Assembly: GCF_900113085.1 (NCBI RefSeq) | Contig: NZ_FOOC01000011.1 | Location: forward strand, 1-64,000 | Direction: 5' to 3' | Source: Fontimonas thermophila | Lineage (GTDB): Bacteria; Pseudomonadota; Gammaproteobacteria; Nevskiales; Nevskiaceae | Length of the DNA: 64,000 nucleotides | Part shown: positions 16,629 to 20,225 of the stretch, piece by piece | How positions within the stretch are numbered: the first letter of the stretch is position 1 | Layout: each line of letters begins with the position of its first letter | Notes under the pieces: model-generated | Told to the model about the DNA's origin: nothing | What the model saw: the letters and a program-made list of their open reading frames with translations, nothing else | The model's database searches: none | Translations under genes and position numbers: made by a program

Positions 16629-17345
16629 ATGACCGATCTCATCCGCTTCGATCGTGTCAGCTATCGCTATCCGGGTGGGCAGGACGTGCTCGCCGACGTG
16701 AGCTTTGCCATCGCCCAGGGCGAGATGGCTTATATCACCGGCCCCAGCGGCGCCGGCAAAACCACTGTGCTGCGCCTGATCGCGGCGCTGTGCCGGGCCA
16801 CCCGCGGCCAGATCGTGGTCATGGGGCAGAATCTGTCCACCCTCAAACCCCGACATGTACCCGCTTTCCGGCAGCGGTTGGGTCTGGTCTTCCAGAACTT
16901 CAACCTGCTCTACGACCGCACGGTGTTCGACAACGTCGCATTGCCGCTGGTGATCCGCGGCTATGCCCATGCCGACATCGGCCGGCGTGTGCGCGCGGCG
17001 CTGGATGCAGTCGGCCTGCTCGGCAAGGAAAAAGTGCTACCGCTGACCCTCTCTGGGGGTGAGCAACAACGCGTCGGCATCGCGCGCGCAATCGTCACCA
17101 AGCCGGCGCTGATTCTGGCCGACGAACCCACTGGCAATCTCGATCCGGAAATGGCACTGGAGGTGATGCGCGGCTTTGCACGGTTCAATGAAGTCGGCGT
17201 GACCGTGCTCGTCGCCACCCATGCGATCGATCTGATCGAAGCCGTGCCCCGCCGCATCATTCATCTCGAACAGGGGCGCATCACCGACAAGCATCCGCTT
17301 GCGGCATCGAAGTTGAAAGAGGCAGCCAGCCATGGCCATCGCTGA
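16629..17345 (+). CDS. ftsE: Cell-division ATP-binding protein FtsE
   Basis: 238 residues, an ABC ATPase. Motifs: Walker [16 protein letters not shown]-loop LVFQNFNLL, signature [15 protein letters not shown], Walker [13 protein letters not shown], and the switch His in VATHAIDLI. FtsE partners FtsX to control periplasmic peptidoglycan hydrolases through EnvC-type activators at the division septum. It runs about 15 residues longer than usual at the C-terminus, and this tail overlaps the start of ftsX by 14 bases, so translation is coupled. Confidence 0.95.
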
Positions 17346-18282
17346 AGCCGGTCTTGAGCGCCCCAACTGGCTTGCGCGCTGGACGCAGGAACATCTGCGC
17401 GTCTTGTTCTTCTCGCTCGGCAAGCTCGCACGGGCGCCCATGGCCGCGGCCTTGACCGCGCTGGTCATCGGCATCGCCCTGGCGCTGCCAGCCGGCCTGT
17501 TTGTCGCCGTACGCAATCTATCGACGGTTGGGTATTCCTGGCAGGAATCGCTGCAGATCTCGCTGTTTCTCAAGGACAGCGTCAGCGACGAGCGCGGCAA
17601 GGCCCTGGCCCGCGAGATCGGCGCCGAAACCGGCGTCGCCCGCGCCACCTACATCTCCCGTGAACAAGCGTTGGCGGAATTCCGCGAGCTGTCCGGTTTC
17701 GGTGAGGCATTGGACCTGCTCAAGGACAACCCGCTGCCGCCGGTGATCGCTGTCACACCGGCGCGCGGCCAGACCAAGGCCGAGGTGCGCAGCCTGCTCG
17801 CCCGGCTGTCGCAGCGGCCCGAGGTCGATCTCGCCAAGCTCGACCAACAGTGGCTGGAGCGACTGTATGCCGTGCTGTCGATCGCCGAGCACGCCGTCGG
17901 AATCATCGCGCTGCTGCTCGGGCTCGCGGTCATGGTCATCATCGGCAATACCATCCGCCTCGACATCGAGGCGCGCCGCGAAGAAATCGAGGTCATGAAG
18001 CTGATCGGCGCGCCGCACAGTTTCGTGCGCCGACCCTTCCTCTACAGCGGGGTCTGGTTCGGACTCGGGGGTGGGCTGCTGGCCTGGGGTCTGGTGGCCC
18101 TGGCCACACATCTGCTCGACGCCCCGACCGCCCAGCTCGCGGCGCTGTACGACAGCACCTACCGGATCGCCGGCCTGAGCCTGAGCGATGGGCTGGCACT
18201 GGTCGCCGCCGGAATCGTCCTCGGCTGGTCCGGCGCTTTTGCCACCGTCACCCACCGCCTCGCCCAGATCGAGCCCCGCTAG
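17332..18282 (+). CDS. ftsX: Cell-division permease-like protein FtsX
   Basis: 316 residues of the FtsX/MacB-type family. A cytoplasmic N-terminus and a first membrane helix (about 35-60, ALTALVIGIALALPAGLFVAV) lead into a periplasmic domain (about 65-180) and three more helices in the C-terminal half. The coupling-loop motif DIEARREEIEVMKLIGAPHSFVRRPF lies between the second and third helices. FtsX transmits the ATPase cycle of FtsE to cell-wall hydrolases at the septum. It follows ftsE with a 14-base overlap and precedes rpoH, as in many Gammaproteobacteria. Confidence 0.95.
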   Translation: MAIAEAGLERPNWLARWTQEHLRVLFFSLGKLARAPMAAALTALVIGIALALPAGLFVAVRNLSTVGYSWQESLQISLFLKDSVSDERGKALAREIGAETGVARATYISREQALAEFRELSGFGEALDLLKDNPLPPVIAVTPARGQTKAEVRSLLARLSQRPEVDLAKLDQQWLERLYAVLSIAEHAVGIIALLLGLAVMVIIGNTIRLDIEARREEIEVMKLIGAPHSFVRRPFLYSGVWFGLGGGLLAWGLVALATHLLDAPTAQLAALYDSTYRIAGLSLSDGLALVAAGIVLGWSGAFATVTHRLAQIEPR

Positions 18283-18338
18283 TGATGATATCTTTATAAA
18301 TCATATAGTTGGAAATGAATTCCGAACTTTTTGCGGGA

Positions 18339-18365
18339 TTAGCACTCAATGCGTGCGAGTGCTAA
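18339..18365. promoter_or_regulatory. Perfect CIRCE element (HrcA operator) in front of rpoH
   Basis: TTAGCACTC (18339-18347), nine bases, GAGTGCTAA (18357-18365): every position matches the CIRCE consensus TTAGCACTC-N9-GAGTGCTAA bound by the heat-shock repressor HrcA. It ends 25 bases before the rpoH ATG chosen here, downstream of an AT-rich stretch (18288-18330) that probably contains the promoter. The site is normally found before groESL or hrcA-grpE-dnaK. Confidence 0.95.
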
Positions 18366-18390
18366 CATCAGCCGCATGGGAGAACAACCG

Positions 18391-19248
18391 ATGACCACCG
18401 CTCTGACGCTGCGCCAACCGACGGCGCTGGTTCCGGTTGCCGGCAGCCTTGATGCGTACATCGCATACGTCAACCAGATTCCGGCGCTGGACGCCGATAC
18501 CGAAAAGCACCTGGCAGAAAAGCTGCGCGACGAGAACGATCTCGCCGCCGCGCAGCAGCTCGTGCTGTCCAACCTGCGCCATGTCGTCCATATTGCCCGT
18601 AGCTATCTCGGCTATGGTCTGCCGCTGGCCGATCTGATTCAGGAGGGCAACATCGGGCTGATGAAGGCGGTCAAGCGCTTCGATCCAGCGATCGGGGTGC
18701 GCCTGATTTCCTTCGCCGTACACTGGATCAAGGCCGAGATCCACGAGTTCATCCTCAGGAACTGGCGCATCGTCAAGATTGCGACGACCAAGGCCCAGCG
18801 CAAGCTGTTCTTCAACCTGCGCTCCGCCAAACGCGAACTGGGCTGGCTCAACCAGGAGCAGGCCGAGGCCATCGCGGCCGATCTCAAGGTCAAGCCCGAA
18901 GAAGTCCTGCAAATGGAAGCCCGTCTGGGCGGCGGCGACGTGTCCTTCAGTGCACTTCCCACCGACGGCGAGGACGGCTATGTCCCCGAGGACTATCTCG
19001 CCGACAGCCACGACGCGATCGCCGAGATCGAGGACGCCGAATGGCAGGCAGAGCGCGAGGCGCGTATGCGCACGGCGCTGGCCACGCTCGATCCCCGTGC
19101 GCGCGACATCGTCCAGCGCCGCTGGCTCACCGAAGGCGAGAAAGCCGGGCTGCAGGAACTCGCCGACGAGTACGGGGTGTCTGCAGAGCGCATCCGCCAG
19201 ATCGAAGCCGCGGCAATGAAAAAACTGCGCAAGGCGATCGAGGGCTGA
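18391..19248 (+). CDS. rpoH: RNA polymerase heat-shock sigma factor (sigma-32)
   Basis: 285 residues, normal RpoH length. Region 2 contains ARSYLGYGLPLADLIQEGN and AVKRFDPAIGVRLISFAVHWIKAEI (in order). The RpoH box RKLFFNLRSAKREL, diagnostic for this sigma group, is present, and region 4 holds the helix-turn-helix LQELADEYGVSAERIRQIE. RpoH directs RNA polymerase to chaperone and protease promoters after heat or misfolding stress. ATG 18391 was preferred over ATG 18376 because GGGAGA lies seven bases before it; the earlier in-frame ATG at 18349 lies inside the CIRCE element. A CIRCE site upstream suggests that HrcA represses its transcription. Confidence 0.97.
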   Translation: MTTALTLRQPTALVPVAGSLDAYIAYVNQIPALDADTEKHLAEKLRDENDLAAAQQLVLSNLRHVVHIARSYLGYGLPLADLIQEGNIGLMKAVKRFDPAIGVRLISFAVHWIKAEIHEFILRNWRIVKIATTKAQRKLFFNLRSAKRELGWLNQEQAEAIAADLKVKPEEVLQMEARLGGGDVSFSALPTDGEDGYVPEDYLADSHDAIAEIEDAEWQAEREARMRTALATLDPRARDIVQRRWLTEGEKAGLQELADEYGVSAERIRQIEAAAMKKLRKAIEG

Positions 19249-19262
19249 GCGCCTGATTTTTT
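19241..19262 (+). terminator. Weak terminator-like hairpin after rpoH
   Basis: A short imperfect stem (AGGGC ... GCGCCT, one bulge) overlapping the rpoH stop codon is followed by six T residues at 19257-19262. The position fits a terminator between rpoH and the convergent ctaB, but the stem is short. Confidence 0.35.
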
Positions 19263-19313
19263 CTGCAAATGCTCGGGCCAGGGAAGGCCAAGATCGGCTA
19301 TGCGCTGCGCGTA

Positions 19314-20225
19314 TCAGAGCAGACCAACGACCACGTAGTGATCGACGAGCAGCAGCGTAAAAATCCCCATCAGATAGACGATCGAGTAACCGAACGTACG
19401 CATCGGCAAACCCGGAACGGGGCGCCATTTCAGGCGCACGGCATAGCCCAGGAAAATGCCGCCGAGCACCAGCGCACCCACCAGATACAGCCAGCCCGAC
19501 ATCCCGGTGGCAAACGGCAGTAAGGTCACCGCCACCAGCAGAATCGTGTACAGCAGCACCTGGGTGCGGGTGAACTCGATGCCGTGGGTCACCGGCAACA
19601 TCGGGATGTCAGCCTTGGCGTAGTCGTCGCAGCGGTCGATGGCCAGGGCCCAGAAATGCGGCGGAGTCCAGACGAAAATGATTGCGAACAAAACCAGCGC
19701 ATGGGCGTGTACCTCACCGGTTGCTGCCGCCCAGCCCAGCACCGGCGGCGCAGCACCGGCGGCGCCGCCGATGACGATGTTCTGCGGCGTCGCCCGTTTG
19801 AGATATAGGGTGTAAACCCCGGCATAGCCGATCAGCGTCAGCTGCGTCAGCACCGCGGTCAGCGGATTGACCAGAAACCACAGAATCGCAAAGCCCGCCA
19901 GGCCGATGACCGTGGCGAACGCGATGGACTCCGTCATCGTCAGCCGACCAGTGACCAGCGGACGCCCACAGGTGCGCGCCATCCGCGCATCGATGTTGCG
20001 GTCGATGATCTGGTTGACCGCAGCGGCCGAGGCCGCCTGCAGCGCGATGCCGAGCGTGCCCCAGACCAGCGCGGACAGCGGCGGCAGCCCCGGCACGGCC
20101 AGAAACATGCCGACGACGGCCGTGAACACGATCAGCATGACCACCCGCGGCTTGCACAGCTCGTAGTACTCCTGCGCCCGCATGCGCAGACCCATCGTGC
20201 GCAGACCCTCCGCGACGACCGCCAT
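19314..20225 (-). CDS. ctaB: Protoheme IX farnesyltransferase (heme O synthase)
   Basis: 303 residues from ATG 20225. A UbiA-superfamily membrane prenyltransferase with several helices and the Asp-rich motif [20 protein letters not shown], plus a second loop [21 protein letters not shown]. It adds a farnesyl group to heme B to make heme O for the aa3 oxidase. Start choice: ATG 20225 lies one base after the ctaA stop (TGAG ATG), giving [13 protein letters not shown]; an alternative is MRAQEYY at 20183. Upstream open sequence to 20390 overlaps ctaA and is not conserved. It is the last gene of the minus-strand oxidase cluster. Confidence 0.95.

Follow-up and report, generated by a model that had tools for sequence, protein, structure and literature searches.

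A perfect CIRCE operator before rpoH in Fontimonas thermophila that is predicted to be built into the rpoH promoter

The rpoH gene of Fontimonas thermophila, encoding the heat-shock sigma factor sigma-32, is preceded by a perfect CIRCE sequence, and this 27-mer probably serves at once as a working operator for the repressor HrcA and as a piece of the rpoH promoter, which HrcA would repress by covering it. The operator is predicted to be built into the promoter in such a way that the -10 element of a sigma-E promoter falls on CIRCE, while the right arm enters a sigma-70-like extended -10. HrcA/CIRCE and sigma-32 are usually pictured as heat-shock systems that run side by side and converge at groESL; these two systems, often regarded as separate, look wired together in F. 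thermophila and many related bacteria.

The CIRCE operator and the heat-shock genes of F. thermophila

A sequence-only reading of the window (the whole 64-kb stretch of DNA that was analysed) had placed a perfect CIRCE operator 25 bases before rpoH, and both the site and the distance stood when the coordinates were rechecked: the sequence TTAGCACTC-AATGCGTGC-GAGTGCTAA at 18339-18365 on the forward strand has 0 mismatches to CIRCE and ends 25 bases before the rpoH ATG at 18391 (Table 1). It is the sole match in the window with up to 3 mismatches allowed, and CIRCE was found in 0 of 100 shuffles of the window. When the 2.73-Mb genome was scanned at the same threshold, as the earlier reading had proposed, 2 sites were obtained, the one at rpoH, which alone is perfect, and one further site with 2 mismatches before groES; a reversed-pattern control over the same genome gave 0 matches. 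A chance match at rpoH was considered and is ruled out by this uniqueness and by the conservation of the site. No CIRCE was found at the hrcA-grpE-dnaK genes of the genome at up to 3 mismatches.

The gene behind the operator had been named rpoH from sequence, and its product indeed scores above the cut-off of the NCBIfam equivalog TIGR02392 (386.1 bits against 323.1), the second-best RpoH-like match in the genome being only 33% identical. A genome without hrcA had been named beforehand as grounds for giving up HrcA control; hrcA is present as a TIGR00331 equivalog (331.4 bits, cut-off 197.2) with an intact reading frame, and the open reading frames after it are read as grpE and dnaK. The genome also encodes an rpoE equivalog (TIGR02939, 296.4 bits, cut-off 236.15). 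The gene upstream of the operator is one that we take to be ftsX-like from its sequence and place.

Table 1. Features around the rpoH operator, in coordinates of the window
Feature	Position	Strand	Remarks
ftsX-like upstream neighbour	17332..18282	+	named from sequence and place
Predicted sigma-E -35, CGAACTT	18323..18329	+	6/7 to GGAACTT; starts 16 bases before CIRCE
CIRCE operator, perfect	18339..18365	+	arms 18339-18347 and 18357-18365, 9-base spacer
Predicted sigma-E -10, TCAAT	18346..18350	+	16 bases past the -35; the left CIRCE arm ends with its TC
Possible housekeeping-sigma extended -10, TGC-TAACAT	18360..18368	+	TGCTAA lies inside the right CIRCE arm
Shine-Dalgarno-like GGGAG before rpoH	18378..18382	+	read from sequence
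rpoH, sigma-32, 285 aa	18391..19248	+	NCBIfam equivalog

The site is classed as an HrcA/CIRCE operator on its pattern, TTAGCACTC-N9-GAGTGCTAA at 0 mismatches, on the presence of hrcA in the same genome, and on relatives that keep the site and in which it co-occurs with hrcA. The predicted HrcA regulon of F. thermophila consists of rpoH and groESL, and of the two predicted operators the one at rpoH is nearer to consensus. The groES CIRCE (L002 1501-1527; G000:C11:190451-190477) is preceded by CTTGAAA-N13-CCCCAA, a promoter near the sigma-32 consensus printed in PMC545781. In the family of F. thermophila the groES CIRCE carries the odd arm TTAGCAGCC in 19 of the 19 loci read (L002, L236-L253), whereas at rpoH the site remains close to consensus; the groES operator of the family is perhaps a tuned, weaker operator.

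Predicted promoter elements at the rpoH operator

Sigma-E promoters have -35 and -10 elements separated by 16-17 bases. The assignment of such a promoter to F. thermophila rpoH rests on CGAACTT-N16-TCAAT, that is, a GGAACTT-like -35 and a TCnnA-like -10 at a spacing of 16-17 bases, together with rpoE in the same genome, although the box matches at 6 of 7 positions and TCAAT is not the commonest form of the -10. The corresponding E. coli elements are given as GGAACTT and TCAAA (PMC2893595). The hexamer of TGC-TAACAT matches a TATAAT-like -10 at 4 of 6 positions, and a consensus scan for a sigma-70 promoter at rpoH found none that was complete and no recognisable -35 to accompany TGC-TAACAT. Because no separate -35 can be recognised, the sigma-70-like part is the weaker of the promoter evidence.

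The same signals were sought in 71 rpoH, 50 groES, and 7 hrcA sites with up to 2 mismatches to a degenerate pattern, identical stretches having been dropped; left outside these sets are L182, at 4 mismatches, L183, whose spacer has 8 bases, and L014 and L017, which carry variant sites. When 43 rpoH sites were aligned on CIRCE, an extra conserved GGAACTT-like box was seen upstream, along with T1 and A3 of the spacer and an A-T after the right arm. GGAACTT, scored at 6 or more of 7 positions, is found in 43 of the 71 rpoH sites, as against 0/50 groES and 0/7 hrcA sites, and shuffled rpoH upstream regions gave a mean of 1.2 and a maximum of 4. Of the 43 boxed sites, 40 have the box beginning at -17 or -16 (40/71 overall); with a looser cut of 5/7 the peak reaches 45/71, and offset pairs clear of -17/-16 reach at most 8/71. 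A T at +29 is carried by 67/71 rpoH sites, compared with 3/50 at groES and 1/7 at hrcA. At the mirror-image positions preceding the left arm, 0/71 rpoH sites show the conserved bases, and the extra conservation is therefore not that of a longer palindrome. The geometry is that of a predicted sigma-E promoter (GGAACTT, 16-17 bases, TCnnA), with the left arm giving the TC; with nAT after it, the right arm GAGTGCTAA reads TGC-TAAnAT, which resembles a housekeeping-sigma extended -10.

The remaining 3 of the 43 boxes belong to the Comamonadaceae-type loci L072, L076, and L078 and start at -12, and 16 bases past them, within the spacer, lie TCCAA, TCACA, and TCATA, respectively. A box at -12 together with TC-like bases in the spacer means that the register shifts as a unit, with the operator still over the -10. 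In the Betaproteobacteria the box is at -17/-16 in 5/20 and at -12 in 3/20 (8/20 in total), and T at +29 is found in 20/20; the box is present in 14/22 of the other named loci and in 20/27 relatives of F. thermophila. Since the box is patchy and T at +29 near-constant, the sigma-70-like part is more general than the sigma-E part, the predicted sigma-E part being strongest in Gammaproteobacteria and in the family of F. thermophila. A conserved A at -41 was also considered (27/43 in the named set) and was dropped, as it is found in only 5/27 relatives.

Distribution of the operator and its co-occurrence with hrcA

The named set comprised the best 80 relatives of F. thermophila RpoH in a name-bearing collection, with taxa taken from record titles. 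CIRCE with up to 3 mismatches lies near the rpoH start in 42 of these 80 loci, mostly in Beta- and Gammaproteobacteria, and in 20/20 of the betaproteobacterial ones; it was found in 0/10 loci of Enterobacterales, 0/4 of Vibrionaceae, and 0/5 of Pseudomonas. A search for hrcA covered 50 of the 80 genomes (the other 30 being mostly further Pseudomonas, Enterobacterales, Vibrionaceae, and Burkholderiales) and found it in 31, in one of them, a Pseudoalteromonas, weakly. The rpoH CIRCE is present in 27 of the 31 named genomes with hrcA vs 2 of the 19 without, both of the latter being metagenome bins. Four genomes with hrcA lack a standard site: L014 and L017 have a variant palindrome, L066 has none, and the fourth, a metagenome bin, possesses a second rpoH that does carry CIRCE (L118). 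At L033 (Pseudoalteromonas luteoviolacea) the rpoH CIRCE is perfect and the sole HrcA match is weak (E 1.2e-11), pointing to either a divergent HrcA or another binder. L006, titled Verrucomicrobia, encodes an RpoH 71% identical to that of F. thermophila and is probably a mislabelled bin.

Closer relatives of F. thermophila were represented by 41 genomes, of which 39 were readable, the exceptions being G080 (upstream region missing) and G087 (no rpoH match). The rpoH CIRCE is found in 29 of the 33 with hrcA and in 1 of the 6 without. Comparison of rpoH upstream regions across related genomes, which the earlier reading had recommended, shows the operator to be common; within the family it is present in all 25 sampled genomes, including one with an 8-base spacer and some with up to 4 mismatches. 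Genomes G076, G083, G086, and G090, three of which represent one genus, have hrcA and one CIRCE-like site elsewhere, with none at rpoH. L183 (G065) has an rpoH CIRCE with perfect arms and the 8-base spacer. Second RpoH-like genes, 51-60% identical to that of F. thermophila and with no CIRCE upstream, are found at L204, L205, and L206 (G060, G069, and G067). It had been supposed that CIRCE normally controls groESL or dnaK operons; the rpoH site is no odd exception, being common in hrcA-bearing Beta- and Gammaproteobacteria.

A second sample of 274 genomes, drawn evenly across the class, was searched with a composite pattern consisting of GAAC, a gap of 11-12 bases, CIRCE (TTRGCACTC allowed), and nAT, a strict pattern that undercounts. 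F. thermophila and two of the relatives described above are part of this sample, which has at least one genome in common with the named set (G033/G222, same hrcA place) and is thus largely, not wholly, independent of the earlier sets. The composite pattern was found in 62/274 genomes vs 0 for the reversed control, and all 30 of the composite loci that were checked adjoin rpoH on the same strand. At positions that the pattern leaves unfixed, the two bases after GAAC are T in 50/62 and T in 43/62, and in the spacer T1 is found in 43/62 and A3 in 54/62; the pattern-free positions still spell sigma-E elements. hrcA was found in 199/274 genomes, and the composite in 58 of these 199 vs 4 of the 75 without detected hrcA; three of those four are 62-85% complete and the other, G183, is 99% complete.

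Some loci carry altered forms of the site. In the Xanthomonad-type loci L014, L017, L021, and L075 the palindrome upstream of rpoH is a variant whose arms contain CAGTC and GACTG, as if the specificity of HrcA had shifted. A search of HrcA residues against the Xanthomonadaceae operator variant (alignment of 58 proteins, 2 partial ones excluded) pointed to no clear residue: the single candidate column, an M-to-L change at position 49, is not decisive, L being present in 2 of the other 54 proteins as well. Among rpoH loci outside the 71-site set, 38/52 have a box at 6 or more of 7 positions with a -10-like sequence, of varying quality, at 15-18 bases, in a scan that was run without a shuffle control and that includes L014, L017, L182, L183, and RpoH paralogues. 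In the Pseudomonas loci L023, L025, L026, L028, and L045 a CAGTGC-like remnant occupies the place of the right arm behind the predicted sigma-E promoter. Boxes without an operator and such remnants therefore suggest that the sigma-E promoter may outlive the operator.

Proposed regulation, alternatives and relation to known systems

The reading of the 27-mer as operator and promoter in one is supported by the sites themselves, by the hrcA, rpoE, and rpoH genes, and by conservation, fixed spacing, and co-occurrence with hrcA; from these sequence data we infer HrcA binding, promoter use, repression, release on heating, and feedback. RNA polymerase carrying sigma-E would recognise CGAACTT and TCAAT, and polymerase carrying the housekeeping sigma factor may recognise TGC-TAACAT. 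With HrcA on CIRCE, both -10 elements would be masked and rpoH kept low. In Bacillus, GroEL helps to keep HrcA active. On heating or protein misfolding HrcA activity would be lost, either directly or by GroEL being drawn away, and rpoH and groESL would then rise together, sigma-32 would turn on the chaperone genes, and fresh GroEL would restore HrcA and close the loop. Sigma-E would feed an envelope-stress input into the same promoter wherever the box is present. The cascade envisaged at the outset, in which HrcA controls rpoH and sigma-32 in turn drives the chaperones, agrees with the anatomy of the site and with its conservation, but it should not be taken as a simple chain, because groES has a CIRCE to itself, located after a sigma-32-like promoter, and because the rpoH operator overlaps the predicted sigma-E promoter, so that envelope stress probably enters at this operator/promoter too.

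The site might instead be a plain HrcA operator with one ordinary promoter, sigma-E being inactive here and the box and the A-T mere side features. CIRCE is indeed wider in its distribution than the sigma-E box, which is missing (<6/7) in 28/71 rpoH sites and 12/20 betaproteobacterial ones, and the near-constant T at +29 (67/71) would suit a single promoter of the sigma-70 type. Against this, the spacing of the box is fixed, the pattern-free positions spell sigma-E elements, the register is shifted in three loci, and sigma-E binds at rpoH in Salmonella and Vibrio (PMC4577112, PMC4890791), which leaves this account rather unlikely.

Nor is it probable, by a wider distance still, that the palindrome is a relic kept by chance or for its promoter role after HrcA control of rpoH was lost here: the few genomes with composite or CIRCE sites in which hrcA was not found would agree with it, but in F. 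thermophila all 18 of 18 arm positions are intact and hrcA is intact in frame, and the site is kept in 25/25 sampled genomes of the family. That the palindrome works at the RNA level, forming a hairpin or thermosensor within the rpoH transcript, and not as a DNA operator, is very unlikely. The self-complementary CIRCE would be part of any transcript begun further upstream, for example from ftsX; variants, however, break the pairing while keeping one arm (e.g., TCAGCACTC vs GAGTGCTAA). An RNA thermometer or structured leader is also unsupported by the folding of one stretch, 18357-18450, which folds no better than its shuffles (z 0.73, with 152 of 200 at least as stable), and by a scan of 17800-19400 at the Rfam gathering threshold, in which no family was found.

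If HrcA represses rpoH as proposed for the combined operator and promoter, loss of HrcA activity would lift the whole sigma-32 regulon, and sigma-32 synthesis would have GroEL as its sensor. Such a fused promoter would be a short switch with three inputs, sharply testable in many Beta- and Gammaproteobacteria. It is conceivable, though we hold it only tentatively, that ancestral Gammaproteobacteria, perhaps Beta- and Gammaproteobacteria together, had an rpoH promoter compressed into some 45 bases, its palindrome being both repressor site and -10 for two sigma factors and sigma-32 synthesis being gated at transcription by HrcA (and hence by GroEL supply) and by sigma-E, and that the well-studied E. 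coli pattern, in which sigma-E acts at rpoH and HrcA is missing, is a later simplification after loss of hrcA; the patchiness of the sigma-E box in Betaproteobacteria lowers the odds of this scenario. hrcA is absent from E. coli, which was on the control list of the hrcA search, and this suggests that E. coli is an atypical guide for Beta- and Gammaproteobacteria with the fused promoter.

The nearest precedent is Geobacter sulfurreducens, in which CIRCE before rpoH was predicted by Rodionov et al., 2004 (PMC545781), and no claim to a first description of the CIRCE-rpoH link is made here. As in F. thermophila, the operator sequence is the same, with perfect consensus and rpoH behind it (Table 8 of that report, at -51); that report concerns one delta-proteobacterium and the site only, whereas the present data show the site to be widely distributed in Beta- and Gammaproteobacteria, to co-occur with hrcA, and to overlap predicted promoter elements. 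With HrcA/CIRCE at groESL the rpoH site shares operator and repressor, and F. thermophila has both, but groES sites differ in lying after a sigma-32-like promoter, in carrying the sigma-E box in 0/50, and in lacking T at +29 in 47/50. Sigma-E is reported to act at rpoH in Salmonella (PMC4577112) and Vibrio alginolyticus (PMC4890791), and AlgU dependence of one rpoH promoter is mentioned for Pseudomonas (PMC4585239). Enterobacteria and vibrios share with the rpoH sites described here the sigma-E-type -35 and -10 with 16-17 bases between them (PMC4577112, PMC4890791), and differ in that CIRCE occurs in 0/10 Enterobacterales and 0/4 Vibrionaceae loci, while here a repressor site lies over the -10. 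In the retrieved portions of the open-licence literature no report was found of CIRCE at rpoH in Beta- or Gammaproteobacteria, nor of a CIRCE/sigma-E promoter overlap at rpoH. CIRCE at Geobacter rpoH and sigma-E at rpoH were thus known before; what is new here is the predicted building of the operator into the rpoH promoter.
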